NCBI GenBank assembly: GCA_002842925.1
Contig: PHEL01000035.1
Location: 1 to 59,536 of the forward strand
Origin: Alphaproteobacteria bacterium HGW-Alphaproteobacteria-14
GTDB taxonomy: Bacteria > Pseudomonadota > Alphaproteobacteria > Sphingomonadales > Sphingomonadaceae
Direction: 5' to 3'
Length of the DNA: 59,536 nt
Shown here: positions 415 to 26,668 of the stretch, piece after piece
Layout of the letters: the number at the start of each line of letters is the position of its first letter
How positions within the stretch are numbered: the first letter of the stretch is position 1
Translations under genes and position numbers: made by a program
Notes under the pieces: model-generated
The model's input: the letters and a program-made list of their open reading frames with translations, nothing else
What the model was told of the DNA's origin: nothing
Database searches by the model: none

Positions 415-431
415 CGGTCTTGGTTCCTCGT

Positions 432-3661: not shown

Positions 3662-3685
3662 CTTCTTCTCTCCCGACCCGTCGTT

Positions 3686-6000: not shown

Positions 6001-6473
6001 GGTGCGTGCTCTCCACTCGCGACCGGCCGGAACACCGGCAGCCGAAAATCGTCCCCCAGCGGCTCGAAGGTCAGTTCGACCGGCATTTCGAGTTTGACCC
6101 GGTCCTGAGTGCATTCGATCAGCCGGGTCGCCATACGCACCCCTTCCTCCAGCTCTACTACGGCCGCAATGAACGGGATTTCGTGGGCAAATGCCGGGTG
6201 TAGGGCCTGGTGCGTGATGGTCCACGTGAACAACGTGCCCCTGCCGGTGCTGGGCTCCCAGGCGAACTCGGGAGAACCGCAGCGGGCGCACATGTAGCGC
6301 GGCAGATGGCGCCAGGTGCCGCAGAAGGAGCAACGCTGGAAATGCAGATGACCATCCTGGCACAGCCGCCAGAATTCCTGCTCTACGGGGTCCTGCGGAC
6401 GCGGACGCGGCTTGGCAGGCGGGGTTTGAGCCTCCTGCCGCTGCTTGGGAGGAAGTTCTGCATCGTGGCTCAT
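5997..6473 (-). CDS. Zn-ribbon/OB-fold (DUF35) protein
   Basis: 158 aa; [38 protein letters not shown]; overlaps neighbours on both sides; adjacent to thiolase-like gene. Confidence 0.85.
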
Positions 6474-7681
6474 GTGAACCTCCGCAAGATGGCGATGCTG
6501 CCGTCGCCCAAATCGCCCCAGCCCGTGACCAAGCCGGTCTGGGCGTTCTCGACCTGCCGATCGCCGCAGTCGTGACGCAGTTGTCGGACCGCCTCGACCA
6601 CATGATTGAGGCCCCAGACATGCGCCTCACTGAGCAACCCGCCGTGAGTGTTTAGCGGATAGCGCCCACCAAGTTCAATTTGCCCGTCCCGGACGAAATC
6701 GAGTTGACCTCCTGGCTCGCAGTAACCCAGAGCTTCCAGCTGCAGCAGCACCACGTAGGTGAAACAGTCGTAGATCTGCAGGAAGTCCATGTTCTCACAG
6801 GTAACTCCAGCCATCTCGAAGGCTTTCGGAGCGGCGTAGGAAAGCCCGATCTTGAACGGATCGGGACGCGAGGGAATGTCGTCGGCCGGATATGGGTGCC
6901 CTTCCGCAGCCCCGGCAATCGTCACCGGCACGTGGGGCATGTCACGCGCCTTGTCGATGCGCGAGACCACCACCGCGCAGGCTCCGTCGGTTTCAAGGCA
7001 ACAGTCGTAAAGCCGGAATGGCTCAGAAATCCAGCGTGATGTGGCATAGGTATCCCAGTCGAGTGGACGACCGCAGGTGAAGGCCTTGGGGTTTAGCTGG
7101 GCGTGCTTGCGACAGGCCATCGCTACCGCGCCCATTGCTTCTGGTCCAACCCCGAACAGCTGGGAGTGACGTGTCGCCAGCCAAGCATACATCTGCACCG
7201 GCAGAAAAACGCCGTAGGGTATATAATAGCCTTGGATCGTGTTGGTCAGCGTGGTCATGTTCATCGACCGCGTCGCCGGCGCGCCGGGCTTGGGGCGCAG
7301 CGCGGAGAACCCGTTCCAACCAAGGGTGACAAGGACATGGTCGCACAGGCCCGCGGCGATAGCCATGGCCGCGTTTTGCAACGCAGTCGTCGGACTTGCA
7401 CCGCCCATGTGGACCGTCGCGGCATAGCGCAGCACATCGATCCCAAGGTTGGCGGCCAACTCTTCGGACGTCGTATAAATCGGCGGCGGGATCATGCCGT
7501 CGATATCGCCCGGCTTCAATCCCGCATCGGCGATCGCGCGGCGCGAGGCTTCCAGCATCATGTCAACCGCGCTGCGTTCGGTGCCCTTGACAAAATCTGT
7601 CTCGCCAATTCCGGTTATTGCGGCTTTGTCGGAAAATCCGGTCATGCGTGACGCCCCCGGATCAGCGGAAACGGCTGGCAA
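6470..7681 (-). CDS. thiolase-like (SCP-x/acetyl-CoA acetyltransferase family) protein
   Basis: 403 aa; [65 protein letters not shown]. Confidence 0.85.
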
Positions 7682-8801
7682 GCGCGAGTGCGCGTTCGGC
7701 TTCGGAAACCAGGTCGGCCATTACTGCGGCGGCGGGGCGCACCGCGTGGATCAGGCCGATCCCCTGTCCGGCGAAGCCGGGAAGGATATCCTTGCGCCTG
7801 GCCTCGATTCCGGCAGCCATGACCGGGCCTGAAATCATCGACTGATAAGGCATTGGCAGCGGTTCCTTGCCCGCGTCAACCCACGCGTCGGCCCATTTGT
7901 TGCGGATCATCCGCGCCGGCTTGCCGGTAATCGAGCGGCTGACCACGGTATCGGCATCTCCGCCCTCGACGATCGCTTCCTTTTGGAAGCCCTCGATGCC
8001 CGCTTCTTCGGTAGCAAGGAACGCGGTGCCGACCCAGGCCCCTTCCGCGCCCAGCATGAAGGCAGCGGCCACCCCGCGTCCGTCGGAAATGCCGCCCGCG
8101 CCCAGCACCGGCACACGGTCGCCCACGGCATCGACCACCTGCGGGATCAGCGAGATTGTCCCGATCGGTGAATTGTGTCCGCCACCGTCATGGCCTTGGG
8201 CGACGATCACGTCGATCCCGTTTTCGACCACCTGCTGCGCGTGCTTGACCTTGCCGACCACGGCCATGACGATCGTACCGTTGGCATGGAGACGGTCCAT
8301 CCACGGGCCGGGATTGCCAAGTCCGGCGGCATAGACCGGCACCTTCTCCTCGATTACCACTTCCATCTGCGCTTCGAAGAATTCCTTCGAGAACAGCGGC
8401 GGGCCGCCCTCGGCATCGCGTCCGCCAGTGGCACGCCTTGCCGCCTCGCCGTCAGCCCTCACCAGCCCTTCGCGGGCCATGAAATCCTCCGCGAACTGGC
8501 GGTATTCGGCCGCCAGTCCCATGGGATCGGCGGGCGCGGTACCGCTTTGCGGAGACTTGCCCAGGCGCACAGAGGCCGGCAGCAGGGTATCGACCCCAAA
8601 CGGCTTATCGGTCAGTTCGCGGGTTTGGCGGATCCATTCCCGCAGTCGTTCTGGCGCGCAGGCTGCGGCGCCCAGAACGCCTAGACCACCGGCATTGGAA
8701 ACCGCAGCCGCCAGCGCCGGAACGCTCGCCCCGCCCATTCCGGCAAGGACGATCGGGTATTCGATTTTCAGCAGATCACAAATGCGGCTGGTCAAGGCCA
8801 T
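7662..8801 (-). CDS. nitronate monooxygenase / 2-nitropropane dioxygenase-like protein
   Basis: 379 aa; [81 protein letters not shown]. Confidence 0.87.
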
Positions 8802-8815
8802 TGTCTTTCTCCCAT

Positions 8816-9601
8816 TCAGGCTTCCCGGTTTGCGTTCCCCCAGCGGACCTTTTGCGCGAGCAATGCAGGACTACGCTCTGCCAGATACTGGGTCGATCCA
8901 TCGGTCAGCCGCTCCATCTGGCGCCGGGCACCCACAGCATCGCGCATCCGCACGGCCTGCAGCACGCGACCGAGGCACCGCAACTGGGTTTCGCGCTCCT
9001 GCGCCGAATAGCCCAGACCTTCCGACATGCTGCGGGTCAACAGGTGCAAAGCGGAGACCAGCAGGCCGAAGGTCGAGTTTCCGCTGGCCCAGCCCAGCAG
9101 ATCGTGAAACCGACGATTGGTTTCCTCGAATTCCGGACCTTCCCGCTCGCGCTCGAGCCGTGCCAGGCATGCCTCGAGCGCAGCAAGATCGGCGACGGTG
9201 GCCATTTCCGCGGCCCGCGCCGCAACCGTCGGGGCAATCGCTTCGCGCAGTTCGAGCAGCGCTCGAAGGTCGGTATCCATGAATTGCAGAATCAGCGCCA
9301 TCGAACTGGCGAAATCGGCTGTCTGCGGACGGGTGATAACCGGCCCACCACCCCGACCCTGAGTGAGATGGATCACACCCTGCAATTCGAGAAAACGCAG
9401 CGCCTCACGCAGCGTAGCACGCGCCACGTCATAGCGCGCCAGCATGGCATCCTCGTGGGGAAGCCGGTCACCCGGTCCCTGCGCATTGCTCTCGATATCC
9501 TCGACAATCTCGCGGGCCAGCACCAGGGCGCGCTTGACCTTGGTCTGGCCAAGGTTAGCGGCAGGCTCCGCAGGGAGGACATGTCTTGGGCCGGATCTCA
9601 T
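8816..9601 (-). CDS. FCD-domain GntR-family transcriptional regulator
   Basis: Start taken at MRSGPRHVL (ORF open to 9661); GDRLPHEDAMLARYDVARATLREALRFLELQGVI wHTH and FCD-like C-terminus. Confidence 0.82.
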   Translation of the reverse strand: MRSGPRHVLPAEPAANLGQTKVKRALVLAREIVEDIESNAQGPGDRLPHEDAMLARYDVARATLREALRFLELQGVIHLTQGRGGGPVITRPQTADFASSMALILQFMDTDLRALLELREAIAPTVAARAAEMATVADLAALEACLARLEREREGPEFEETNRRFHDLLGWASGNSTFGLLVSALHLLTRSMSEGLGYSAQERETQLRCLGRVLQAVRMRDAVGARRQMERLTDGSTQYLAERSPALLAQKVRWGNANREA

Positions 9602-9670
9602 GATAATCTGATAAGAATTAAGTGAAATGCTGTCAATGCTCCCGCAAAAACTATCGCACACTGGAGGGTT

Positions 9671-9724
9671 CTGGATAAACTCTTATACTATTTATTGACG
9701 AATCGGTGATCTGCCCTTATCCAG
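9671..9724. promoter_or_regulatory. divergent regulator/P450 intergenic region with 8-bp inverted repeat
   Basis: ctggataa (9671-9678) and ttatccag (9717-9724) are exact inverted copies in the AT-richer gap between 8816 (-) and 9758 (+). Confidence 0.35.
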
Positions 9725-9757
9725 CCCAGGAGCAGACCGAACTTGAGGGAGGTGACG

Positions 9758-11035
9758 ATGGCCACGCAAGCAATTCCGCAGGAACTGGACGGTGCCGAGC
9801 TTGCCCGGGCTGTTGCCGGCATCCCGCTTGCTGAGATCGACGTTGCTCGCCCAAGCCTGTTTCAGAGCGACAAGGTCGGGACCTTCTTCGAGCGGCTGCG
9901 ACGTGAGGATCCGGTCCACTACTGCGCCGAAAGCGCCTATGGCCCCTACTGGTCGATCACCAGATACAACGACATCATGGCGGTCGACACCAATCACAAG
10001 GTCTATTCATCCGAAGCCAAGCTGGGCGGGATTGCGATCCAAGACATGCACAGCGACCAGAGCAATCTCGAACTCGAGATGTTCATCGCCATGGACCAGC
10101 CCAAGCATGACGCGCAGCGCAAGGCGGTCACTCCGGCAGTGGCGCCTTCGAACCTGCTGCTGCTCGAACCCGTGATCCGCGAACGTGCCGGAGAAATTCT
10201 TGATTCGTTGCCGGTCGGCGAGGAGATCGACTGGGTCAAAAGCGTTTCGGTCGAGCTGACCACGATGACGCTGGCGACACTGTTCGATTTCCCTTGGGAA
10301 GAGCGAGCCCGCCTGACCCGCTGGTCCGACGTCACGACCGCCATACCTGGGGCGGGAATAGTCGATTCCTTCGAGCAGCGCCGCGATGAGTTGATCGAAT
10401 GTGCGATGTATTTCAAAGGACTCTGGGACCAGCGGATCGACCAGGCAGGGGGTAACGACCTGATCTCGATGATGGCGAATTCGCCCGCCACGCGCGAAAT
10501 GCCGTTCCTCGAATTTCTGGGCAACCTGCTGCTGCTGATCGTTGGTGGAAACGATACCACCCGCAATTCGATCAGCGGCGGAGTCCTGGCGCTGAACCGG
10601 CATCCCGATCAATATGACAAATTGCGGAGCGATCCCGCCCTGATCGGCAATATGGTTCCTGAAATCATCCGCTGGCAGACCCCGCTCACCCACATGCGCC
10701 GAACCGCGTTGGAAGACAGCGAGATCGGTGGGAAGCGCATCGCCAAGGGTGACAAAGTCGTCATGTGGTATCTTTCGGGCAACCGCGACGAAACGGTGAT
10801 CGACCGGCCCGAGGAATTCATCATCGACCGGAAGAGCCCGCGCCAACACCTTTCGTTCGGCTATGGCATCCATCGCTGCATGGGCAACCGCCTGGCCGAA
10901 TTGCAGCTTCGGATTATCTGGGAGGAAATCCAGAAGCGCTTCCACTTCGTGGAGGTCGTTGGCGAGCCCGAGCGCCTGCTTTCCAATCTCGTTCGCGGAA
11001 TCACCCGCCTGCCAGTCAAACTTCACGCGCATTGA
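9758..11035 (+). CDS. cytochrome P450
   Basis: I-helix LLLIVGGNDTTRNSISGG, ExxR EIIRWQTPLTHMRRTA, heme-binding HLSFGYGIHRCMGNRLAELQ. Confidence 0.93.
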   Translation: MATQAIPQELDGAELARAVAGIPLAEIDVARPSLFQSDKVGTFFERLRREDPVHYCAESAYGPYWSITRYNDIMAVDTNHKVYSSEAKLGGIAIQDMHSDQSNLELEMFIAMDQPKHDAQRKAVTPAVAPSNLLLLEPVIRERAGEILDSLPVGEEIDWVKSVSVELTTMTLATLFDFPWEERARLTRWSDVTTAIPGAGIVDSFEQRRDELIECAMYFKGLWDQRIDQAGGNDLISMMANSPATREMPFLEFLGNLLLLIVGGNDTTRNSISGGVLALNRHPDQYDKLRSDPALIGNMVPEIIRWQTPLTHMRRTALEDSEIGGKRIAKGDKVVMWYLSGNRDETVIDRPEEFIIDRKSPRQHLSFGYGIHRCMGNRLAELQLRIIWEEIQKRFHFVEVVGEPERLLSNLVRGITRLPVKLHAH

Positions 11036-11064
11036 TTTACGCGCCAAGGGAAAGTTGCAGTTCT

Positions 11065-11391
11065 ATGGTCAAGGTCACCTTTGTTGCCCATGATGGTCGC
11101 CGGTTTCCCGTTGAAATCGTATCCGGAATGACAGCGCGCGAAGCGGCACTGTTCAACGATGTTCCGGGAATCGACGGCGATTGTGGTGGCCAATGCGCTT
11201 GTGCCACATGTCACGTCCATGTCGATCCCTCATGGATCGACCGGGTCGGATGCCTTTCCGATGGGAGCATGGAGGCCGATTTGCTTCAGTTTGCCGAAGG
11301 GACCACGGAAGAAAGTCGGCTCGCTTGCCAGATCACGCTTGATGATCGGCTTGACGGGCTTGTTCTCCATGTCCCGGAGCAGCAGTACTGA
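11065..11391 (+). CDS. [2Fe-2S] ferredoxin
   Basis: MVKVTFVAHDGRRFPVEIVSGMTAREAALFNDVPGIDGDCGGQCACATCHVHVDPSW: CxxxxxCxxC cluster motif, directly downstream of P450. Confidence 0.92.
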   Translation: MVKVTFVAHDGRRFPVEIVSGMTAREAALFNDVPGIDGDCGGQCACATCHVHVDPSWIDRVGCLSDGSMEADLLQFAEGTTEESRLACQITLDDRLDGLVLHVPEQQY

Positions 11392-11559: not shown

Positions 11560-11949
11560 TCACCTGACGAGCTGCAACTCAACTCCAATGTCAGGCGGCA
11601 GCCCTCCCCATGCGCGATCGCATGTCAATGCTGGCAGCGCCAGAGAGCGGGCCAGAGCAAGACAGCACCTGTCGCCGAGCGATAACCCCTTGTCAGCCGT
11701 AAGCGGGCGAAGCGCACTCGCTTGATAAGCCTGATCTTCATCGAGCGGCACAATGCGAATTGGCAGCTCGCGTAATGCAAGCTCAACCTCGTCAGCGGGC
11801 ATGCCGCCATGGATGAACGTTGTCGCGACCTCCGCCAGATTGATGGCAGACATTACGGAGGTCGGCATCAGCTGCCTGACAGCGCTGCCGCCGGGCTCAT
11901 CTTTTAGAAATGCGAGCAGCGCGGACGCGTCGAGCACAACCTCGCTCAT
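11560..11949 (-). CDS. PIN-domain toxin (VapC-like)
   Basis: 129 aa; MSEVVLDASALLAFLKDEPGG..., SLGDRCCLALARSLALPALTCDRAW. Confidence 0.88.
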   Translation of the reverse strand: MSEVVLDASALLAFLKDEPGGSAVRQLMPTSVMSAINLAEVATTFIHGGMPADEVELALRELPIRIVPLDEDQAYQASALRPLTADKGLSLGDRCCLALARSLALPALTCDRAWGGLPPDIGVELQLVR

Positions 11950-12188
11950 TCACCGCTCTCCGCGCGCCTGTTCGCCAGAAAGTCATCGACCGACGTGCCC
12001 GGCAAATCGGCATATTTGGCAAAGGTCGCCTTCACTTTGTCGAGCACCTGCTCAACGGAACGAAGCGTTACCTCCTCGTCGCCTACCTCTACGATCACTG
12101 TTCCGCCCTTTTCGAGGCCGAGCCGCTTCCGGATGGCAGCTGGCAGGACCATTCGGCCATTTTCCATTACTCTGACCTCGACGCCCAT
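11946..12188 (-). CDS. AbrB/MazE-type antitoxin (VapB-like)
   Basis: MGVEVRVMENGRMVLPAAIRKRLGLEKGGTVIVEVGDEEVTLRSVEQ; 4-bp overlap with the PIN gene. Confidence 0.87.
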   Translation of the reverse strand: MGVEVRVMENGRMVLPAAIRKRLGLEKGGTVIVEVGDEEVTLRSVEQVLDKVKATFAKYADLPGTSVDDFLANRRAESGE

Positions 12189-12423
12189 AAATGTCACTCC
12201 AAAGGCTTGATGACACGAATTGCTCGATAGCACATTGTCCCGCGAGTGCCAATGAATCTCAGTTATGACTGTTCTTTGCTGATGATGCGCCGCGGCGCCA
12301 TTTTTCACATTGTCCGAAAGGGATCGGGTCAGATCCCCCTCCCCTCCACGAATCCGGCTTGCCCCGCTCTCTCATTAAGGTGGTACGCTTTATTTTCTCA
12401 CACAGGGGCCTCATCCGTTACAA

Positions 12424-12710
12424 ATGACCAACACCCTCATCGGATATGCTCGCTGCTCGACCGACAAGCAGGATCTCACCGCCCAGCGCCAGGCGCTCAT
12501 CGAGCTCGGCGTACCCGAGGATCGCATCTACACCGACCTTGGATCAACCTCCCGCGACCGCCCCGGCCTTGCCCAGCCGGTAGCGGCAGTGCGCGTCGGC
12601 GAGACAATGGTCGTACCACAGCAGGCTCGTATCGCCTGATCCGCACCGGATGCCCGAGCGATCGCTGACAAGTCGGAAAATCACGGCGTGAGACTCTCGT
12701 CGGGCGAGCA
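12424..12710 (+). pseudogene. truncated and frameshifted serine recombinase (Tn3-family resolvase/invertase)
   Basis: MTNTLIGYARCSTDKQDLTAQRQALIELGVPEDRIYTDLGSTSRDRPGLAQPVAAVRVGETMVVPQ is a resolvase N-terminus; homologous text PDARAIADKSENHGVRLSSG resumes after a disruption, then ends. Confidence 0.75.
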
Positions 12711-12794
12711 AGTCGAGAGATCAGCAGTTTTGTGGTAGAAGCGGTGCCCCTGCTTCCGAAGCCCGACCAGCTCACCGCCTTTGCGATCCCCGGA

Positions 12795-12945
12795 CGCAAC
12801 AAGACCCTCACCGGTTTCCCGGGGAGGGTCTTGTGAATACAGAAGCCTTTGTATCAATGCTTCAACAAGGAATTTCCCTTTCGGGATGATCCTTCACAGT
12901 GAAGCTCTGTTACCGTGGCTTCCCTACCGATTTGCCGAAATCATG
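12795..12945 (-). ncRNA. candidate tracrRNA (type II-C)
   Basis: Minus strand carries anti-repeat GGCAAATCGGTAGGGAAGCCACGG (12913-12936), 23/24 match to the CRISPR repeat, followed by hairpins CTTCA-CTG-TGAAG, CCC-GAAA-GGG, GAAGC...GCTTC and a terminal 11-bp stem ACAAGACCCTC/GAGGGTCTTGT (12799-12834). Confidence 0.85.
12799..12834 (-). terminator. terminal hairpin of the candidate tracrRNA
   Basis: 11-bp perfect stem plus inner CCGG/CCGG pairing; no clear U-tract follows. Confidence 0.6.
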
Positions 12946-12953
12946 ATTGCCGA

Positions 12954-12990
12954 TTGACCTAGCCGGGTCAAGGCGCTTCTTTCGAAAGAA
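12954..12990. promoter_or_regulatory. two palindromes in the divergent tracrRNA/cas9 intergenic region
   Basis: TTGACC-N6-GGTCAA (12954-12971) and perfect 14-bp TTCTTTCGAAAGAA (12977-12990) just upstream of the cas9 ATG at 13002. Confidence 0.5.
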
Positions 12991-13001
12991 AGGGGAAAGT
13001 A

Positions 13002-16000
13002 ATGAGCGGCCTCGTTTTTGGTATCGATCTGGGCATTGCATCTTGCGGGTGGGCCGTGCTGCGCCACCCTACCCCGGGCGATCCATCCGGCGAGATCGTC
13101 GCCATGGGATCGTGGATGTTCGATGTTCCAGAGACCGACAAAGAACGGACGCCAACCAACCAGATCAGGCGCGGCAATCGCCTGCTGCGCCGGGTGATCC
13201 GCCGCCGTGCACAACGGATGGGAGAAATCCGCCGCATATTTGCCCAGCACGGGTTGCTGGCCGGCAACGAACCGGATGCGCTGAAGCGCGCCGGGCTTGA
13301 TCCTTGGGAATTGCGCGCGCGAGGGCTGGATAAGCCACTGTCGTCCGCCGAATTCGCCGTTGCCCTGGGCCACATCGCCAAGCGACGTGGGTTCAAGTCG
13401 GCCAGAAAGGGCAAGGAGGCGAACACCGCCGGTGACGATCAGAAGATGCTCAAGGCGCTGGAGGCGACCCGCGAGCGGCTCGGCCGCTATCGAACCGTTG
13501 GCGAGATGTTTGGCCGCGATGCAGATTTCCGTGACCGCAAGCGCAATCGCGATGGCCTGTTCGACCGCACCCAAAGCCGTGATGATCTGATCCACGAGGT
13601 TGCAAAGCTGTTCGAGGCACAACGCCGTCTGGGCAATGATACGGCTTCAGCAGCCCTTGAAGCTGAGTTCACCGCCATCGCCTTTCGCCAGCTGGAGATG
13701 CAGGACAGCGAAAAGCTGGTTGGCATGTGCCAGTTTGAGCCCAAGGAAAAGCGCGCCGCCAGATTTGCCCCGTCGTTCGAGAAGTTCCGCCTGCTCGGCA
13801 AACTGGTGAACCTGCGCATTACCGCGCCGGAGGGCGAGCGCCCGCTCACGCCGGACGAAATCAGACTGGCGGCGGGCGATCTCGGAAAGTCGGCCAAGCT
13901 CTCCGTCAAGGAGGTGCGGAAACGGATCGGCCTGCCAGCGGATCAGCGCTTCACCGTGTTCAAACCAGAGGAAGAGACGCAGGACATCGCCGCTCGTACA
14001 GGCGAAGCGATGCACGGCACCAAGAAGCTGCGTGATGCACTTGGGGAGGTGCTGTGGGCGGACTTGCAAACGCGACCGGCGCAGCTCGACCAGATCGCGC
14101 ATGTCATCAGCTTTCACGAAACTGCCGACAAGATCGGCGAGGAGTTGGCCAAGCTCGGCCTTCCGGCCGGAGCGGTGGACTCGCTGCTTGACAATCTGAA
14201 GGGGTTCTCGCGATTCAAGGGAGCTGGCCATATCTCTGCAAAGGCGGCGCGCGCGCTGATCCCGCACCTCGAAGCAGGGCTGCGTTACGATCAGGCATGC
14301 GAGGCCGCTGGGTATGACCACGCGGCGTCCCGCTGGAGCAAGCGCGAGCAGGTGGCGGACAAGGCTGGGTTCAATGCGCTGGTGCAATCGATGGGCGACG
14401 AAATCGCCAATCCCGTCGCGCGGAAATCCCTTACCGAAGGGCTGAAGCAGCTTTGGGCGATGCGCAATCGCTGGGGTTTGCCAGATGCCGTGCACATCGA
14501 GATGGCGCGCGATGTCGGCAACAGCCTCGAAAAGCGCAACGAGATCAAGCGCGGCATCGACAAGAATACTGCAGAGCGCGAACGTCAGCGCAATGAAGTC
14601 CGTGAACTGCTGGGCATCGAGGACGTGAACGGCGATACGTTGCTGCGCTACCGTCTATGGAAGGAACAGGCCGGACGCTGCCCCTACACGGACAAGGCGA
14701 TTCCAGCGACCGCGATCATTGCCACCGACAATAGCTATCAGGTCGACCATATCCTTCCATGGTCGCGGTTCGGGGATGACAGCTACGCCAACAAGGTGCT
14801 TTGCACCGCGCGGGCAAATCAAGAGAAGAAAGGGCAAACACCCTTCGAATGGTTCATGTCTTCCCAAGGCGAAGATGCCTGGAATACCTTCCTGGCCCGG
14901 ATCGAAGGTAACACCGCGTTCCGGGGCGCAAAGAAGCGCAATTATGTCCTAAAGAACGCGAAGGAAGCGGAAGAACGCTTCCGCACCCGCAACCTCAACG
15001 ACACCCGCTATGCAGCGCGGCTTCTCGCCGAAGCAGTGAAGCTGTTTTACCCGGAAGGTGACCGGCAGGAAAAAGGCGGCAACCGCCGTGTGTTCACGAG
15101 ACCGGGCGGGCTGACTTCGGCGCTGCGTCATGCTTGGGGCGTCGAATCACTGAAAAAGGTTGACGGCAAGCGGGTCGAGGATGCCCGCCACCACGCTCTC
15201 GATGCACTTGTCGTTGCTGCGATCGGAGAATGGGAAGTGCAGCGGCTCACCCGGTCCTATCAGGAATGGGAACAGAAAGGCCTTGCCCGGCCGCTGCGGC
15301 AGGTTGATCCGCCGTGGGGCGATGCCGCCAGCTTCCGGCGGGAGGTCAAGGAGGCCTATGACAATATTTTTGTCGCGAGGCCGGAACGGAGACGTGCGCG
15401 TGGCGAGGGTCACGCCGCGACCATCCGTCAGGTAAAGGAGCGCGATGGCGCGCTTGTCGTCTATGAACGGAAGTCGATCACCGACCTTACCGAAAAACGA
15501 TTGCAAGACATCAAAGATCCGGAACGAAATCAGGGCGTAATCGAGGCGATCCGGGAATGGATCGCGAATGGAAGGCCTGCGGACAGTCTGCCGCGCTCCC
15601 CTGCCGGAGATGAAATCCGCAAGGTTCGGCTTCGGACAAAAGGAAAACCTGCCGTGCATGTCAGGGGCGGCACGGCAGATCGCGGCGAGATCGTACGGGT
15701 CGATGTGTTTGCGCGGCCCAACAAGCGGGGCAAGGACGAGTTCTACCTTGTGCCGATTTACCCTCATCACGTGATGAACAAGCGTGACTGGCCTACGCCG
15801 CCTGAGAGGTCTGTCGTCGCATACAAGGATGAGGACGAATGGACGCTGATCGATGACCGCTACAAGTTCAAGTTCAGCCTCCATCCAAGAAGCTATATCG
15901 AGGTGACAAAGCCCACGGGTGAATTGCTGGCTGGATACTTCCAGGGACTGAATAGGTCGACCGGTGCTATCAATCTCTCGAACCCGAGAGACCCCCGCTT

Positions 16001-16163
16001 GTTAGCCGATGACAATGGCAATTCGATGCAAAGCATTGGCGCAAAAACTTTGTTAACCATGAAAAAGTACAATGTGGATCGCTTCGGCGTTTGTTCCGAA
16101 GTGAAATCCGAGGTCCGCACATGGCATGGCGTGGTCTGCACATCTCCAATCCCGCCAGACTGA
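13002..16163 (+). CDS. cas9: CRISPR-associated endonuclease Cas9, compact type II-C (1053 aa)
   Basis: RuvC-I MSGLVFGIDLGIASCGWAVL; arginine-rich bridge helix NRLLRRVIRRRAQRMGEIRRIF; RuvC-II DAVHIEMARDVGNS; HNH YQVDHILPWSRFGDDSYANKVLCTARANQEKKGQTPFEW; RuvC-III DARHHALDALVVAA. Confidence 0.98.
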   Translation: MSGLVFGIDLGIASCGWAVLRHPTPGDPSGEIVAMGSWMFDVPETDKERTPTNQIRRGNRLLRRVIRRRAQRMGEIRRIFAQHGLLAGNEPDALKRAGLDPWELRARGLDKPLSSAEFAVALGHIAKRRGFKSARKGKEANTAGDDQKMLKALEATRERLGRYRTVGEMFGRDADFRDRKRNRDGLFDRTQSRDDLIHEVAKLFEAQRRLGNDTASAALEAEFTAIAFRQLEMQDSEKLVGMCQFEPKEKRAARFAPSFEKFRLLGKLVNLRITAPEGERPLTPDEIRLAAGDLGKSAKLSVKEVRKRIGLPADQRFTVFKPEEETQDIAARTGEAMHGTKKLRDALGEVLWADLQTRPAQLDQIAHVISFHETADKIGEELAKLGLPAGAVDSLLDNLKGFSRFKGAGHISAKAARALIPHLEAGLRYDQACEAAGYDHAASRWSKREQVADKAGFNALVQSMGDEIANPVARKSLTEGLKQLWAMRNRWGLPDAVHIEMARDVGNSLEKRNEIKRGIDKNTAERERQRNEVRELLGIEDVNGDTLLRYRLWKEQAGRCPYTDKAIPATAIIATDNSYQVDHILPWSRFGDDSYANKVLCTARANQEKKGQTPFEWFMSSQGEDAWNTFLARIEGNTAFRGAKKRNYVLKNAKEAEERFRTRNLNDTRYAARLLAEAVKLFYPEGDRQEKGGNRRVFTRPGGLTSALRHAWGVESLKKVDGKRVEDARHHALDALVVAAIGEWEVQRLTRSYQEWEQKGLARPLRQVDPPWGDAASFRREVKEAYDNIFVARPERRRARGEGHAATIRQVKERDGALVVYERKSITDLTEKRLQDIKDPERNQGVIEAIREWIANGRPADSLPRSPAGDEIRKVRLRTKGKPAVHVRGGTADRGEIVRVDVFARPNKRGKDEFYLVPIYPHHVMNKRDWPTPPERSVVAYKDEDEWTLIDDRYKFKFSLHPRSYIEVTKPTGELLAGYFQGLNRSTGAINLSNPRDPRLLADDNGNSMQSIGAKTLLTMKKYNVDRFGVCSEVKSEVRTWHGVVCTSPIPPD

Positions 16164-17023
16164 CGCATCGCAGCCGTCAGATCGTTGTCGATCCCGAAGG
16201 GAGCGATGAGGCGCTGACCTTCCCGGTCGAAGACATCGCCTGGATAATTCTCGATACCCCGCAAGTCTCCGTAAGCGGCTCCCTGCTCAGCGCCTTGGCG
16301 GAAAACGGTGTTGCGATGGTGGTGCCAGACGCGAAACACCATCCAGCCGGAATGCTCATGTCATTCCACCAGCATCATGCGCAAGCCGCCATCGCTCACG
16401 CTCAGATCGGGATGAGCCAGCCGCTGAAAAAGCGGCTTTGGCAAAAGCTGGTTTCAGCCAAGATCGAAAATCAAGCCGCCGTCCTGCGCGGGATCGGCAG
16501 TGATCATGCAACCGCTCTATCCGCCATGGCGGGGCGAGTTGGCTCGGGCGATCCTGACAACCTGGAGGCCCAGGCTGCCCGCGCTTATTGGCAGCGCCTG
16601 TTTGAAGGATTCCGGCGCCATGACGAAGACCGGCGCAATGGTCTGCTTAACTACGGATATGCTGTGGTCCGCGCGGCTCTTGCGCGGTCCTGCGCTGCAT
16701 CCGGCTTGCTTCCCGCCTTCGGCATTCATCACAGATCCAGAACAAACCCATTCAATCTTGTCGATGATCTCATTGAACCATTCCGACCGGTCGTCGATCA
16801 AATGGCCCGTGCACGGGTAACCGCCGAAGAACGAGACGAGATGGACGTCGAGGATCGCCGCCATATGGCGGGCATCCTGAGCGAGAACATCTCGATCGGC
16901 GAAGAGCGCTTGACGATTCTTGCAGCAACAGAGGCGGTCGCCGCCAGCCTGGTCAGATCGATCGAAGCCGGCAACGCCACACCGCTGAACACACCGGCGC
17001 TTCCGCTGGCCCGGCGCAACTAA
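16121..17023 (+). CDS. cas1: CRISPR-associated endonuclease Cas1 (type II)
   Basis: MAWRGLHISNPARLTHRSRQIVVD...; NGVAMVVPDAKHHPAGMLMSFHQHHAQAAIAHAQIGMSQPLKKRLWQKLVSAKIENQA; overlaps the cas9 3' end by 43 bp. Confidence 0.96.
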   Translation: MAWRGLHISNPARLTHRSRQIVVDPEGSDEALTFPVEDIAWIILDTPQVSVSGSLLSALAENGVAMVVPDAKHHPAGMLMSFHQHHAQAAIAHAQIGMSQPLKKRLWQKLVSAKIENQAAVLRGIGSDHATALSAMAGRVGSGDPDNLEAQAARAYWQRLFEGFRRHDEDRRNGLLNYGYAVVRAALARSCAASGLLPAFGIHHRSRTNPFNLVDDLIEPFRPVVDQMARARVTAEERDEMDVEDRRHMAGILSENISIGEERLTILAATEAVAASLVRSIEAGNATPLNTPALPLARRN

Positions 17024-17025
17024 GC

Positions 17026-17355
17026 ATGGAGGCCGACGAGGTACGCTTCATGTGGTTGATGGTATTCTTCGACCTGCCGGTGAAAACAAAACCGCAGAGA
17101 CGGCGTGCCAGCCAATTTCGCCAGTTCCTCAAGAAGGACGGCTACATGATGCTGCAACTTTCGGTTTACGCGAGGGTCTGCCGGGGGCAAGATGCTGTGG
17201 ATAAGCATGTCCGCCGGGTGCGAAGCAGCCTGCCCAAGGAAGGCAGCGTGAGGACGCTCCAGGTTACGGACAAGCAGTATGGCAGAATGGAATTGATGCT
17301 AGGGACCGCGCCAAAAACTGAACAAGTCGGGCCATCCCAGATGGTTCTGCTGTGA
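17026..17355 (+). CDS. cas2: CRISPR-associated endoribonuclease Cas2
   Basis: FMWLMVFFDLPVKTKPQRRRASQFRQFLKKDGYMMLQLSVYARVCRGQDAVDKH. Confidence 0.96.
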   Translation: MEADEVRFMWLMVFFDLPVKTKPQRRRASQFRQFLKKDGYMMLQLSVYARVCRGQDAVDKHVRRVRSSLPKEGSVRTLQVTDKQYGRMELMLGTAPKTEQVGPSQMVLL

Positions 17356-17389
17356 TTTCGGCGGAATATCTCCGCGAAAATCACAGCAG
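17347..17389. other. near-perfect 19-bp inverted repeat over the cas2 stop codon
   Basis: ctgctgtgatttcggcgga (17347-17365) / tccgcgaaaatcacagcag (17371-17389): 17 of 19 positions pair, 5-nt loop. Confidence 0.75.
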
Positions 17390-17412
17390 TTCCAATCCGT
17401 TACCGTCGAGCT

Positions 17413-18056
17413 GTCCTACCATGGGCAAATCGGTAGGGAAACCACGGCCTCGGCGCGCGTCTGCCGGGCGGGACGCAAGTCCTACCATGGGCAAATCGGT
17501 AGGGAAACCACGGTAGGGAAACCACGGCATGAAGGTGCTGTCTCCTGCCGCGCTTGCAGTCCTACCATGGGCAAATCGGTAGGGAAACCACGGCGCTCTG
17601 GCGATTGTAGAGCACCCTGCCGCAGTCCTACCATGGGCAAATCGGTAGGGAAACCACGGCGCTGATATCGAAGTCGCGTTGATCACCCTTGTCCTACCAT
17701 GGGCAAATCGGTAGGGAAACCACGGCCGCCAGTGTCAAATTATCGTTGAGTGCGAGGTCCTACCATGGGCAAATCGGTAGGGAAACCACGGCACGGTCGA
17801 TTGCGCACCTGCACCCTCACCGGTCCTACCATGGGCAAATCGGTAGGGAAACCACGGCAAATGAGCCGGTCATTCGTCAATATCCTTTGTCCTACCATGG
17901 GCAAATCGGTAGGGAAACCACGGCTGAAGTTGTGTGTGCTTGACATGCCCTGCAGTCCTACCATGGGCAAATCGGTAGGGAAACCACGGCCTCGGCGCGC
18001 GTCTGCCGGGCGGGACGCAAGTCCTACCATGGGCAAATCGGTAGGGAAACCACAGG
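17413..18056. CRISPR. CRISPR array: 10 repeats, 9 spacers of 30 nt; + strand repeat GTCCTACCATGGGCAAATCGGTAGGGAAACCACGGC (36 nt)
   Basis: Repeats start at 17413, 17479 (50 nt, internal 14-bp duplication), 17559, 17625, 17691, 17757, 17823, 17889, 17955 and 18021 (degenerate 3' end). Every spacer is exactly 30 nt. Orientation of crRNA inferred as minus strand from the tracrRNA anti-repeat. Confidence 0.98.
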
Positions 18057-18097
18057 CCCAAATGGGCCTGTCAGGTCGATCGGCGCGGAACGCGCCG
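18053..18097. other. two GC-rich hairpins at the right edge of the array
   Basis: CAGGCCC-AAAT-GGGCCTG (18053-18070) and CGGCGCG-GAA-CGCGCCG (18081-18097). Confidence 0.6.
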
Positions 18098-18163
18098 AAA
18101 TGCTGCCAGGAGGATACATCGGGATCGGACGCGCGGTTTCTCAGACGACTGCGTCGAGCTCCC

Positions 18164-18463
18164 TTACGTTCGATTATCGAAAGTAGCCGCAGCGCTCGCC
18201 CCCGGCCTCTTGTTCCCTCGCTCCCAATCAGGATCATGCTTCTTGGATAGATTGAGATAGCGCGCAAAGACTGGCTGCGCGACGGCCTGTGCTTCACGGA
18301 TCGCTTTGATTTCTTCGGCTGCGAGCGGCACCGCAGGAGCAAGGCAAGCCTCGTCGAATTCCCGCAAGGTCTGCTTGTCGATGGCGCCAGCCTCATGGAG
18401 CCCTTCCATCATCTCATGGACGGCTGCTAGCGCCTCGCTTTTATAGGTTCTGGGCATCGTCAT
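18164..18463 (-). pseudogene. HigA/XRE-type antitoxin relic, frameshifted
   Basis: MPRTYKSEALAAVHEMMEGLHEAGAIDKQTLREFDEACLAPAVPLAAEEIKAIREAQAVAQPVFARYLNLSK...DWERGNKRPGASA; the expected ALRLLSIIERKG tail is in another frame. Confidence 0.7.
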
Positions 18464-18785
18464 TCACCTCGAACAATCTTCCCTCATGAACTTCTGCCTC
18501 AATCTGCGCCTGCGTCAGGCCGAGCATAATTCCGGCGACCCGCCTGTAGGTCCGCAATTCGATCGCATTGAGGTTGGCTATGCCGCTCTTGGCGAAGCCA
18601 AAGGCGAACACCGCCCTATCCTCGTGACGAAAGAAGAGCAGCGTGCGGTAACCGCCCGATTTTCCTTCTCCTTGGCGCGCGACACGCTGCTTGATGAGGC
18701 CGCCGCCAAGGTCGGCGTCGATTAAGCCTCGTTTTGCCTGATCGATGGACGCAACTAGTTTCGCGTCACTTATGCCATCATTTCC
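18441..18785 (-). pseudogene. RelE/HigB-like toxin relic lacking its N-terminus and start codon
   Basis: Minus-strand frame reads GNDGISDAKLVASIDQAKRGLIDADLGGGLIKQRVARQGEGKSGGYRTLLFFRHEDRAVFAFGFAKSGIANLNAIELRTYRRVAGIMLGLTQAQIEAEVHEGRLFEVNDDAQNL; an in-frame stop (18786-18788) sits just upstream with no ATG between. Confidence 0.7.
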
Positions 18786-19849: not shown

Positions 19850-20113
19850 CTAGCGGCCGATAGGGCTCTCGCCATACTTGCGCAGGACGTCGTCGAAGGC
19901 TTCGGCCATCAGGTCCTGAAGGCTGAGACCATGGCGGCGGGCACAGGTGTGCAGGGCAAGCGACAGCTCGGGCGAGAAATAGCCGGAGATCGCCTTGCGG
20001 CCGACGCGGCTCGGCGGGGTCGGAACCTGGGCGACGGATGATGGCGAGGCAGGCGCGGCGGCCTTTGCCTCATCCTTGGGCGTGCGGTCGGCAAGGTTGG
20101 CAAAGCGGTTCAT
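19850..20113 (-). CDS. ribbon-helix-helix-like partner of ParA
   Basis: 87 aa; [44 protein letters not shown]; overlaps parA. Confidence 0.72.
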
Positions 20114-20799
20114 GCGGATTTCCTCTCATGGGCCTGAGACTGTGAGCGTGTGGACATGTGGAGCTGTTCACATGCCCACATGTGCAGATGTTCGATCTCG
20201 CAGGCTGCCTTGCCGCCCGCATCGAGCTCAAACACTGTCTGACCGGCTGCGACCGCGTGGCGATAGGCCGCGCGGTCCGGCAGGATGATGGGGCAGGTCT
20301 GGCCGCCGAACCCGGCCACCAGCTCGCGGGCATCGGCATAGATGTGCGGAGCATGGGGCGGCCCGGCGGTGAACACTACGAAGGCGGGACGCGCCAGCAG
20401 CTCGACCAGACGGATGGTCGTGCGCATCGCGACGAGGTCGAAGGCGCTGGGGCGGCAGGGGATCAGCACGAGGTCGGCGCACTCGGCAGCCTTACTGGCG
20501 GCAAGATCGGCGTGCGGCGGCGTGTCGATCACGATCAGCTCAGCACCCTGCTGGGCAGCCGCCGCGATCTTGGCCGGGATGCGCGGCGGGGCGCTGTCGA
20601 TCACCTCCGGCGGCGCGCCTTGCCGCCACTCAGCCCATTGCGAGGCGCTGGCCTGCGGATCGGTGTCGATCAGCAGGCTGATGCGCCCTGTACGGGCGGC
20701 CGCAGTTGCCAGGTGGATCGCCAGCGTGGTCTTACCCGCACCACCCTTCTGGCTGATGATCGCAATTGTTTGGGTGTGAGGATGTGGAGGCGTGGTCAT
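20110..20799 (-). CDS. parA: ParA-family partition ATPase
   Basis: [48 protein letters not shown] (deviant Walker A), [35 protein letters not shown]. Confidence 0.93.
20165..20174. repeat. TGTTCACATG motif, cluster 2 (parA 3' end)
   Basis: gctgttcacatgcccacatgtgcagatgttc. Confidence 0.55.
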
Positions 20800-20814
20800 G
20801 TGCGGTGGTCCTCA

Positions 20815-20824
20815 TGTTCACATG
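20815..20824. repeat. TGTTCACATG motif, cluster 3 (upstream of parA)
   Basis: cctcatgttcacatgtgggcatg. Confidence 0.6.
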
Positions 20825-20889
20825 TGGGCATGTAAGGCCGTGGAATGGTGGGGACGTGCGGGCGTAGGGATCCGGGGGCATCATCGCGG

Positions 20890-23862
20890 TCACATCCCGA
20901 AGTCGTAGTCGCGATCGCGCGACAGATCTGGTCCGCTGGACCCGCGCCCCGGTTCGCTGCGCTCGGGCATCCTTTCGAGGGCCAGTTCGCGGTCCTCGTT
21001 TTTGATCGCAGCGTGCAGGTCCTGGCCATTTTCTCGAGCGGTCTCGATCGCACTGCTTTTCTCGCCGGTGCGGGTCTCCACCTGCCGCTCGACGCCTGAT
21101 GGGTTGTCGGTCACCAGGGTCGCGTTCTCCGCGATCCGGGTCACCGCGACCAGGAACGAGGCAGAAGTATTGAGCATCCGCTCGCGCTCGGACATCATGA
21201 TGATGCCGTCCTTGGCGGTCATGCCTTGCGCGACATGGACGTTGATGGCGTAGGCAAGGTCGAGCCGCTCGAGCATCGGATCGCCGCGCGGCAGATCGTG
21301 GAGCTGGCCGTCGCCTGCCTTCACGGTGATCGTGTTGTCGTTGTCATCGATGCGGGCAACATGGGCGATGTCGCCGTTGAGCAAGCCGCGCTCTGCGTCC
21401 TTGGCGGTCCAGCGGATGCGGTCACCCTCGTTCAGGTCGATCTGCTTGCGCTCGAAGATGGTGACCGCGTCGTGCTTGAGGTTGCGGGGTAAGCGATCAG
21501 GATCGAAGCGTCGGATCTCGCCGTCGGGCATGGCGAGTTCGACCTTGCCGTCCTTGATGCCGATAACCGTGCCGCGTTCGCCGCGGGCAAAGCCTTGCGC
21601 GCGCAAGTTGGTCTCGATGGCAACGATGCGCCCGTCCTGATAGCCCTTTAACTGCCGCGCACCCTCGCGGGTGATGGTGACCCGGTCGAGCACCTCCAGC
21701 GTCACCCCACGCTCGCTGATCTCGCCGCGTTCGATCAACGCTTGTTGCGCGGCGGCATTGCCCGCGCTGCGCATCGCACGCCCGGCGGCAAGCAGGATGG
21801 TGTTGTCGCGATCCTCCTTGGGGAGATTGGCCCACATGGCAGCGGCGGCATCGGGGATCTTGCCTGAAGGCACCTCGGTCGTGGCAGGCTGCAGAACCGC
21901 GAAGGCTTCGCCGATATCGCCCTGTTCTAGCGCGCGGTTGATTGCGACCATCTGCGAGGTCTGCGCGCGCAGGTTCTCAGTGATTTTGCTTTTGCCGAGA
22001 TCCTGCTGCTGCAATTGCGCGAACGGCTTGCCCGCTTCGATGGCCGGCAGCTGCTTGATGTCCCCGGCGAGCACCAGCTTACCCACGTCCATCTGGTTGG
22101 CGAGGGTGATGAGCCGCGCGAGCCGGTCTGTGCCGATCTGACTCGCCTCATCCACCATAACCAGCGCACCGGACAGCTCCGCCCTAGTCGCTGCCACCTT
22201 ATCTGCGCTGGCACTGCCATCGATGACACGCCCGTACCGGGCCAAAAACGCATCAACGGTTGATGCCGGACTGGCCGTCTTCTCCCCAAACTCCCGCGCG
22301 ATGCGGCCCACTTGGGACAGCGCCACCACCTGCCGCCCCTCCTCCCGCGCAATGGCTGCAATCGGAGCCAGCGCCGCCGACTTCCCCACACCCGCGCCGC
22401 CCTGTACCAGATGCACGCGGTCTTTGGAGGTGAGGATCGCGACGCCCGCCTGCTCCTGCCCGGCATTGAGGCGACGTAGGCCAATCGCCCGCGCCTGTTC
22501 CTGTAGCCGCGCTACCACACCGTCAGGCGCCGCAATGGGCTGAACGCTGTCTTTGCCCGCCTGCGCCAGGGCGATGACCTTTGTCTCCATGGCCAGGGCC
22601 TGCTCGGTGGTCAGCATGCGGTCGCGATCCGCTGGTCCGCTGCCGACCAGCAAACCGCGCTCCTGCAATAGGTCGATCCGCGCTTCGATCATATCGACGG
22701 TAATCGGTCCCTGCCGTTCGAGGGCTGTCCGGATCAGATCATTGCGGGAGAAGGCTGCCTCGCGCTCGCCAAGTTCCCGGGCGGCCGAGGCAACCGCCTG
22801 CGCCGCGGCAAAGGCTTTGGGTTCGAGCCGCCCAAGCCGCTCTGGAACCATGGGATCCCCATCTTTCGGGGTCAGGCCCATGGCACCGGCGATTGCCATG
22901 CCGCGCTCGCCGATGCCGCGAAGGCCGTCGACGACGCGCGACCAGACAGTCTGCTCCCCCGCAGCACGAGCCATGGCGCTCTCGATCAGCCGCGCAGGAT
23001 CAAAGCCGATGGCGCGGGCTGTCTCCTTCCACGCAGCGACCTGTCGCGCTGCATCGGGCTCCAGTTCCTTCCCGCGCCGCGTGGAAAGCGCCGCCAACTC
23101 GCGTTCTCGGGCACTGCCCCGATCCTCCTTGGCAAGCTCGGCCAGGATCTCGGCGCGGCGGGTTGAGAAGGCTTCGACCGCTTCCCGCGTGACGCCTTTG
23201 ATCTCGAAAGCGCCATCGATGGAATTGCGGGCAGGAACCGTTTCGTAGCCCAAAGCCTCGACACGGCTGCGCAGCTCGGCATTGTGGACTGCCGACAACA
23301 CGTGCTGGGCGCGGTAGAGCTCGTCATTGCGCACCGCATGCCATTTGCCGTCCGAGGCCTTGGTCGCGTTGGCGATGACAGCATGGATGTGGAGCTGCGG
23401 TTCGCCGTTCCTGTTCACATCATGCAGAAAGGTCGCGGCGATCAGGTTGCCGGTGCGTTCGGGCACCTGTCGCCCTAGAGCTGCATCCCAGACCCGGGCT
23501 TCGACAACGTTCTTCTCCGCCCAGCGCAGGGTTGCTGCCACGGAGTCCTTCAAGGCTTCGACCAGACGCTTGTCGCCGCCGAGCATCGCCACCAGCGACA
23601 CGGACTTCGAGGCCGAGAAGGTGAGATCAACGCCGGGGCGGTGAACGCCGTCTCTCCCGGCAATCACCGATCCGTCGGGCAGCCTGCCCTCGAGCACGGC
23701 GGCAAAGGCCGCTTCTTCGACCTTGCCGGTCAGGCCCAACGCCTCGGCACCCCTGCCGAACCACGCGCTGGCATCCTGTGTCTGGTCAGCGGTGTAGTAG
23801 TTGTCGGCCGCGTAATACTCCGCCGCCGATGAGGCCGATCCGACCGAAGCGAGCGTAATCAT
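20890..23862 (-). CDS. MobF-family conjugative relaxase/helicase (TrwC/TraI-like)
   Basis: 990 aa; N-terminal SAAEYYAADNYYTADQTQDASAWFG; HRPGVDLTFSASKSVSL; HxHxH motif EPQLHIHAVIANAT; helicase VHLVQGGAGVGKSAALAPIA. Confidence 0.93.
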   Translation of the reverse strand: MITLASVGSASSAAEYYAADNYYTADQTQDASAWFGRGAEALGLTGKVEEAAFAAVLEGRLPDGSVIAGRDGVHRPGVDLTFSASKSVSLVAMLGGDKRLVEALKDSVAATLRWAEKNVVEARVWDAALGRQVPERTGNLIAATFLHDVNRNGEPQLHIHAVIANATKASDGKWHAVRNDELYRAQHVLSAVHNAELRSRVEALGYETVPARNSIDGAFEIKGVTREAVEAFSTRRAEILAELAKEDRGSARERELAALSTRRGKELEPDAARQVAAWKETARAIGFDPARLIESAMARAAGEQTVWSRVVDGLRGIGERGMAIAGAMGLTPKDGDPMVPERLGRLEPKAFAAAQAVASAARELGEREAAFSRNDLIRTALERQGPITVDMIEARIDLLQERGLLVGSGPADRDRMLTTEQALAMETKVIALAQAGKDSVQPIAAPDGVVARLQEQARAIGLRRLNAGQEQAGVAILTSKDRVHLVQGGAGVGKSAALAPIAAIAREEGRQVVALSQVGRIAREFGEKTASPASTVDAFLARYGRVIDGSASADKVAATRAELSGALVMVDEASQIGTDRLARLITLANQMDVGKLVLAGDIKQLPAIEAGKPFAQLQQQDLGKSKITENLRAQTSQMVAINRALEQGDIGEAFAVLQPATTEVPSGKIPDAAAAMWANLPKEDRDNTILLAAGRAMRSAGNAAAQQALIERGEISERGVTLEVLDRVTITREGARQLKGYQDGRIVAIETNLRAQGFARGERGTVIGIKDGKVELAMPDGEIRRFDPDRLPRNLKHDAVTIFERKQIDLNEGDRIRWTAKDAERGLLNGDIAHVARIDDNDNTITVKAGDGQLHDLPRGDPMLERLDLAYAINVHVAQGMTAKDGIIMMSERERMLNTSASFLVAVTRIAENATLVTDNPSGVERQVETRTGEKSSAIETARENGQDLHAAIKNEDRELALERMPERSEPGRGSSGPDLSRDRDYDFGM

Positions 23863-24668
23863 CGCCGATCCTCATGGGCGATGACGCGCAGGCCGAGATC
23901 GCGCTCCTGCTGGGGCACGCGGCAATCGGTGGTGGCGTATTCCGCTTCGATCAGGCGACACATCTCTGCCGGGCTATCGATCAGCCTGGCAGCCTGCCAC
24001 ACAGACCAGCTGTCCCACAGGTTCGGTGCCATGAGGCCGACAAGGAAACCGAAGACAATCGCCAAGCCTCCGCACGCTGACAGAAACCTGAGCGACAGCA
24101 TGCGATCATCGCCGAGGTAGACTGCGCGTATCTGGCGCGGCTCGCTCGCGAGTGCGATCGACTTGTCGAGCTGTTCGGAGATCTTTGCGAGGTGCGGTTC
24201 GAGCGCCTCGATGAGCCTGGGCTCCAGCGTTTCGAAACCGGCAAGCAGCTTCTCGACCTGCTGGTAGAAGGCCGAGTAAGCCTCCGAGTTGCGTTGCCGG
24301 ATTTGGTTGGCAATGTTCTCATGGGCACGTTGGCTAGCTGCTTCGCCGCCATTCCAGTCCGCCACGAGCTTCCCGAACAGCCGAGCGTTCTCGTTCTGCG
24401 CCCGGTCGAGCTCGACCACGAGGTCACGCAGCTCATGAACAAGAAAGCTGACCGTGGTGTCGAGGCGCGGTGCAGCCTCCTTCTGGAACAGGGCACGGCC
24501 AGCATCGGCGGCCTCAATGAATTCGACGGCCAGATCCCTGAGCAGGGCCGCGTTCGACAGACTCCGTTCGGCCGCGATGGCGCTGAACCGGGTGTAGATG
24601 TCAGATGAGACGCTGGTGTTGAGCTGTTCAAGCTTGGCCACTGGAACCTCCTTTGATGACAGAGGCAA
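23859..24668 (-). CDS. relaxase-associated protein: RHH-like N-terminus, coiled coil, C-terminal TM segment
   Basis: 269 aa (possibly starting at VAKLEQLNTSVSSDIYTRFSAIAAERSLSNAALLRDLAVEF); TM FLSACGGLAIVFGFLVGLMA; 4-bp overlap with the relaxase gene. Confidence 0.65.
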   Translation of the reverse strand: MPLSSKEVPVAKLEQLNTSVSSDIYTRFSAIAAERSLSNAALLRDLAVEFIEAADAGRALFQKEAAPRLDTTVSFLVHELRDLVVELDRAQNENARLFGKLVADWNGGEAASQRAHENIANQIRQRNSEAYSAFYQQVEKLLAGFETLEPRLIEALEPHLAKISEQLDKSIALASEPRQIRAVYLGDDRMLSLRFLSACGGLAIVFGFLVGLMAPNLWDSWSVWQAARLIDSPAEMCRLIEAEYATTDCRVPQQERDLGLRVIAHEDRR

Positions 24669-24719
24669 GAGGCGACCGTCTAGAAATCAACCTGTTGAAA
24701 TATGGCGGTTCTATAGACT

Positions 24720-24750
24720 GGCTATAGACCGATTGTGCTGCTGGGGCAGC
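24720..24750 (-). other. candidate oriT/nic region
   Basis: Minus strand GCTGC-CCCA-GCAGC hairpin (24737-24750), 11 nt, then GGTCTATAGCC (24720-24730), which matches the core GTCT/ATAGCC of the R388 nic site from memory; a second GTCTATAG follows. Confidence 0.6.
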
Positions 24751-24823
24751 TTTCCCGGCGCGATTATGACCCTGTCTAGAGCCTAGAATGGCGGATTTCT
24801 GCGGGTCTTTGCCCGCCCAGACC

Positions 24824-24847
24824 ACACCGCCACGTAGCGTGGAGTGT
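24824..24847. other. inverted repeat upstream of oriT candidate
   Basis: ACAC-cg-CCACG-tag-CGTGG-a-GTGT. Confidence 0.45.
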
Positions 24848-24968
24848 GTAATTCTATTTTCCCCGCCGAGCCCTTGTGCCGTCCTGATTTCCGAATTCCA
24901 TGATGGTCTGGAATTCCCGTTGAGACCGCCCCGGCAGGGGGCGCAACAGGCTGATAAGCGGCACCTGG

Positions 24969-26183: not shown

Positions 26184-26470
26184 TTTGCACCTCCGGCAAG
26201 GTTTGTCCTTGCACCCGATTCTTCGGTCGCGTAGATGAGAGAAATAGCCGCAACGCTATTGAAATGACCGCTGTGAAGGGTGCCAGCCCTTCCGGCGGTT
26301 TTTCGTAGGCGGTCTGGCGGCCTGCCTACCGGCTTCCCAACGCGGTAATTCCGACCAGACATGCGCGTTTCCGAGGGCCTCAAAGTGCCCGCTCGTACAA
26401 ATCGCGTACAGTCAGCCCCGTACAGAAGGCAGATTCTACAAAGAAAACATCTGACTATCTGATTTGGCTG

Positions 26471-26521
26471 GCTCCCTTCACACGGGTGGGGTCACAGGTT
26501 CAATCCCTGTCGCGCCCACCA
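26471..26521 (+). other. 3' fragment of a tRNA-Val(CAC) gene (candidate att site)
   Basis: gctcccttCACacgggtggggtcACAGGttcaatcCCTGTcgcgcccacca: anticodon loop TTCACAC, perfect T-stem, CCA end; no acceptor/D-arm upstream. Confidence 0.8.
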
Positions 26522-26668
26522 TCTTTTCAATGACTTAGGAAAGATGGCGCCGGTGTCCATGAAAAATTGAGAAGGCGTGCGGCGCGGGCGTGCTGAGCGC
26601 GCTTTGTGATTATGCCGCTGCGATCCGCATCGCCAGCGCTTGCCGAGCAATCGGCTTCGCCCGAACCC

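Follow-up and report, generated by a model that had tools for sequence, protein, structure and literature searches.

A sphingomonad-type bacterium with a complete type II-C CRISPR-Cas locus, and an apparent exchange of the PAM-interacting segment in a related Cas9

Gene content and classification of the locus

The window, the whole stretch of 59,536 nucleotides that was analysed, contains a 5.3-kb module consisting of a predicted tracrRNA gene (12797..12936, minus strand), cas9 (13002..16163, plus strand), cas1 (16121..17023, plus strand), cas2 (17026..17355, plus strand), and an array of 10 repeats. The cas9 product (1053 aa) matched TIGR01865 of NCBIfam (E 2e-188), with additional matches to HNH_4 and RuvC_III. 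The 300-aa Cas1 was assigned to the type II subfamily (TIGR03639, E 3e-85), and the 109-aa Cas2 matched TIGR01573 (E 2e-22) and PF09827. The start of cas1 was best placed at the ATG at 16121, inside cas9, so that the two genes share 43 nt. Between cas2 and the array, no further gene was detected; a conserved intergenic stretch there (17356..17412) marks the probable acquisition end. Neither csn2 nor cas4 was found beside the operon, and the 2.75-Mb genome of the host contained a single cas1.

The window Cas9 possesses the split RuvC and the HNH that type II requires. By motif position, D9, E500, H731, and D734 of RuvC and D582, H583, and N606 of HNH were all present, and we take their catalytic roles from established knowledge of Cas9. 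The Cas1 motifs E149, H203/H204, and E219 were also present. The best solved relative was NmeCas9 (E 5e-126; PDB ID: 8ja0 and 6jdv), which is a II-C enzyme; the window Cas9 was therefore grouped with II-C on its closest solved structure, our tree being one without II-A or II-B references. The two proteins share the II-C domain order but are distant from each other, and their PAMs presumably differ.

These data bear out a preliminary description of the locus in several respects. Family matches for the three cas genes, the array, and the anti-repeat duplex support its completeness, and the type II Cas1, the lack of csn2 and cas4 by the operon, and the proximity to NmeCas9 support the assignment to II-C. 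The catalytic motifs described as intact and the overlap of cas1 with cas9 were likewise recovered, and the span given (12795-18056) agrees within 2 bases with the block homologous to relatives (12797 to about 18058).

Organization of the CRISPR array

The array (17413..18056, probably minus strand) comprises ten 36-nt repeats and nine spacers, of which eight are distinct. Repeats start every 66 nt except in one 80-nt unit, a regularity far beyond chance. The preliminary count of 10 repeats and nine spacers was correct, but not the uniform spacer length of 30 nt: eight spacers have this length, and spacer 2 nominally measures 44 nt, the excess being a 14-nt duplication of the repeat end (AGGGAAACCACGGC) at 17515..17528. 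This duplication should separate spacer 2 from its tracr-pairing repeat by a spurious insert, and likely disables the spacer 2 crRNA. The outermost spacers 1 and 9 are identical (30/30). Both anomalies could stem from decay of the array or from faulty assembly.

In the far-end repeat (18021-18056), mutation has replaced GCCGTGG by CCTGTGG; altered far-end repeats were seen in three relatives as well (L027, L030, and L033). Folding predicted a hairpin, CAGGCCC-ATTT-GGGCCTG (18053..18070, minus strand), which overlaps this mutated, first-transcribed (extra) repeat. A 2025 study of II-C arrays described repeat mutations and hairpins as means of silencing the extra crRNA made from the oldest end (PMC12080349), with spacers entering opposite the extra-crRNA end (PMC12080349; see also PMC12638026). 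The hairpin and the mutated repeat of the window resemble these silencing features. Moreover, the cas2-side flank of the array was strongly conserved in eight loci, and the far end was not. The conserved cas2-side flank and the mutated far-end repeat would fit acquisition at the cas2-proximal end, the 3' end of the array as transcribed. The 3' end of the repeat, TGGTAGGAC, is a weak extended -10, and a promoter scan found no in-repeat promoter; with such a poor -10, the in-repeat promoter of other II-C arrays is not evident here.

Relatives of the window Cas9 and predicted sharing of guide RNA

Besides the host, four of the 399 family genomes encoded a full-length Cas9 of the same clade (67-93% identity), and others of these genomes had II-C-like Cas9s with about 30% identity. 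Among 114 congeners, the host alone carried an intact system of this clade; congener G224 (L011, contig 12) contained, at a contig end, remnants of cas9 (105 aa, 79%) and cas2 belonging to it. In the genome collection, members were found in Croceicoccus, Novosphingobium, Stakelama, Eilatimonas, Brucella endophytica, Bombella, and others, and a plasmid collection added Tistrella pTM3. The phylogenetic tree grouped the window with Croceicoccus and Novosphingobium MD-1 (support 100/99) and placed a Caulobacteraceae contig (MAG) and a Kordiimonadaceae isolate among the sphingomonads, placements that suggest horizontal spread.

Gene order and repeat were common to about a dozen relatives; their spacers differ, and the clade therefore appears to acquire spacers. 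An identical or nearly identical repeat accompanied by a conserved tracrRNA was found in Croceicoccus, Novosphingobium, Stakelama, Eilatimonas, Tistrella, and others, and Brucella and Bombella also carry nearly the repeat and anti-repeat of the window. With the repeat identical or nearly so and the tracrRNA conserved, guides should be interchangeable between the window Cas9 and its clade. The repeat had been described as unusual and the Cas9 as a candidate orthogonal enzyme. Neither holds within this alphaproteobacterial II-C clade, where nearly the same repeat and anti-repeat occur and the tracrRNA is conserved. The repeat and tracrRNA of NmeCas9 differ from those of the window. A literature search by repeat sequence returned no match.

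Among the closest systems was that of Croceicoccus ponticola GM-16 (L021, NZ_RXOL01000001), which has the same repeat, nearly the same tracrRNA, a Cas9 with 93% and a Cas1 with 98% identity, but three different spacers and different flanking DNA. Novosphingobium sp. MD-1 (L023, NZ_BBXA01000027) resembles the window in its Cas9 core (94%), Cas1 (98.7%), repeat, and nearly identical tracrRNA, and is unlike it in the PAM-interacting segment (42% identical), in having 31 repeats, and in its flanks. Two adjacent identical 31-nt spacers were noted in the MD-1 array (about 11087-11221). Plasmid pTM3 of Tistrella mobilis (L038) shares the layout and the mobile setting, with a repeat differing at a few positions, whereas its DNA identity is 67.6% and its tracrRNA hairpins are longer. 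Bombella-group II-C systems (L031 and L033; PMC12282179) share the layout and repeat core, although their Cas9s are 57-59% identical and their nexus is different (see below). EHCas9 (PMC10281378), compared by description only, is likewise a II-C enzyme of alphaproteobacterial kin encoded with cas9-cas1-cas2 and an upstream tracrRNA gene; it differs in its length of 1070 aa and is described with an NGG PAM. The window locus is thus an ordinary II-C immune locus of a sphingomonad-type bacterium, and about a dozen alphaproteobacteria harbour close relatives whose guide RNA is almost unchanged. It enlarges a little-characterised alphaproteobacterial II-C clade by an intact compact Cas9 whose guide can be predicted.

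Genomic setting and mobility

Homology to Croceicoccus and MD-1 extended from 12797 to about 18058, outside which the flanks differ, and these ends of a shared block indicate that it moves as a unit. To its left lies a truncated and frame-broken serine recombinase gene (12424-12714), cut where homology to congeners ends; the recombinase is intact in congeners (191-203 aa). To its right are genes for ParA (20110-20799), a TrwC/MobF relaxase (20890-23862), and a RepC-like protein (24969-26183), followed by a 49-bp stretch that copies the 3' half of tRNA-Val(CAC) with 96% identity; the intact tRNA gene lies on another contig. Several congeners that lack this cas9 carry the relaxase at 86-92% identity, and further copies of the tRNA-Val insertion site were found in many congeners. 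The stretch from ParA to the tRNA-Val copy (20110-26522) reads as one terminus of an integrative element that inserted at tRNA-Val, and the CRISPR block is probably cargo on or next to this element, for which no left end was found. An empty site of the block was not found among the congeners, which match on the left only to 12714 and on the right only from 18791.

Immediately after the array, 18143-18779 is 76-78% identical to the Novosphingobium megaplasmids pTHN and KACC 22771 unnamed1. On the other side of the block, 11560-12308 (minus strand) encodes a PIN-domain toxin with a MazE/AbrB-type antitoxin, a pair that congeners G401 and G426 share at 89-91% DNA identity. Positions 1-11391, with acyl-CoA dehydrogenases, a thiolase, an AMP-binding ligase, a cytochrome P450, and a ferredoxin-like ORF, probably constitute a degradation gene cluster.

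Spacer targets and predicted function

The window spacers were searched as a joined query, supplemented by a search of the 21-22-nt PAM-side words of all eight against viral contigs. The eight distinct spacers had no convincing protospacer in phages, plasmids, viral contigs, the host's own genome, the 114 congeners, or the 399 family genomes, and no self-targeting match was found in the own genome beyond the array. Weak, scattered partial matches were judged to be due to chance. In the related locus of N. mangrovi (L022), spacer 7 matched traC of rhizobial conjugative plasmids (29/30 in pTi), and because of this match the clade probably targets conjugative plasmids. The 3' flanks of the L022 matches were TGTTTCAG in rhizobial plasmids and TGCCGCAC in Xanthobacter, and a match in a phage record (28/30) was flanked by AGCTTGAG; these matches are too few to yield a PAM.

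We consider it very probable that the locus is a complete type II-C adaptive immune system. Gene content, intact motifs, RNA pairing, conservation, and block boundaries are read directly from the sequence, and the predicted expression, processing, acquisition polarity, cutting, and PAM reading follow from it by inference. Cas1-Cas2 would add spacers to the array on the side that faces cas2, and the array would be transcribed on the minus strand, toward cas2. Upstream of cas9, the minus strand would yield a ~140-nt tracrRNA to which each crRNA pairs by the first ~24 nt of its repeat portion, and host RNase III would presumably process the duplex. The RNA-bound Cas9 would then cut spacer-matching DNA whose PAM is read by the C-terminal domain. 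The 5.3-kb module would move between alphaproteobacteria as a block, lying here beside the relaxase-bearing integrative element at tRNA-Val.

Alternatively, the locus might be II-C by descent with acquisition and interference lost, a fossil beside a degrading mobile element. The identical spacers at both ends, the 14-nt aberrant repeat, the targets not found, the truncated serine recombinase, and the fragments of cas9 and cas2 in G224 are in line with such decay. However, none of the three genes is interrupted or shortened, the catalytic residues are intact, and the high identity of the Croceicoccus Cas9 and Cas1 points to purifying selection, which renders loss of function unlikely.

Apparent exchange of the PAM-interacting segment in Novosphingobium MD-1

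Comparison of the window Cas9 with that of MD-1 showed 94% identity over aa 1-820 and 42% over aa 826-1018; the WED/PAM-interacting segment spans about aa 829-1021 (15488..16065, plus strand). Identity returned to 93% over the final 33 residues, which are encoded partly by the stretch shared with the beginning of cas1. DNA identity fell from 91% to 67-42% near 15437-15488 and was back to 95% after about 16065. Croceicoccus showed no such step relative to the window (92% in the core and 97% in the PAM-interacting region). The MD-1 segment was 30-42% identical to those of all other clade members and had relatives at 51-52% in other alphaproteobacteria; because it is unlike the rest of the clade and has relatives elsewhere, MD-1 Cas9, and not the window Cas9, looks like a recombinant generated by natural domain exchange. 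We predict that MD-1 reads a different PAM with the same guide.

The low C-terminal identity might instead reflect fast divergence or an assembly chimera, given that PAM-interacting regions are in general the least conserved part of Cas9 (PMC7606464). The sharp steps of DNA identity at both ends of the segment and its relatives in other alphaproteobacteria argue against this, as do all other clade members, even those with core identities of 57-87%, whose PAM-interacting regions are nearer to that of the window than is that of MD-1; we regard this explanation as improbable. For domain exchange as a route of change in the clade, we lean, by a modest degree, towards the view that homologous exchange of the WED/PAM-interacting segment changes the PAM in one step, with guide, core, and adaptation genes kept near constant. 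If so, the window, Croceicoccus, and MD-1 systems would represent a natural before-and-after set. That the PAM-interacting domain varies naturally between close Cas9s has been described before (PMC9433092 and work cited there), and the MD-1 exchange would be a new instance of it, not a new principle. The pair of window and MD-1 would allow a direct natural test of whether exchange of the segment alone shifts the PAM.

Predicted structure and direction of the tracrRNA

The tracrRNA gene comprises an anti-repeat (12912-12936, minus strand) and, downstream of it, three hairpins: the nexus, a second one, and a strong terminal one (12799-12834, minus strand) whose arms are 94% complementary. The first 25 nt of the minus-strand repeat, GCCGTGGTTTCCCTACCGATTTGCCCATGGTAGGAC, pair with the anti-repeat in a 25-bp duplex (-51.4 kcal/mol). 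A predicted promoter, TTGACC-17-AATCAT (12943..12971, minus strand), ends just upstream of the anti-repeat and was the single sigma-70-like site in 12700-13060, where 0.1 is expected. No Rfam match was found in the window.

Given the minus-side anti-repeat pairing, the conserved hairpins, and the promoter-like site, tracrRNA and array most likely run opposite to the cas genes, from the minus strand. The layout in the preliminary description stands, with the strand of both elements corrected to minus. For EHCas9, tracrRNA and array were also argued to share one direction (PMC10281378). A plus-strand reading of both, co-directional with the cas genes, is very improbable: the complementary strands pair too (-47.2 kcal/mol), but the covarying and terminal hairpins lie 3' of the anti-repeat on the minus strand in relatives, it is to the 5' part of the minus-strand repeat that the anti-repeat corresponds, an arrangement shared with known type II systems, and the minus strand also carries the promoter-like site.

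The arrangement of anti-repeat and hairpins was conserved in 16 relatives. Three pairs with double-sided changes among 13 sequences lent modest covariation support. The second hairpin varied in length and sequence with its pairing kept, and the nexus hairpin was ACAG/CTGT in sphingomonads versus ACATGG/CCATGT in Bombella.
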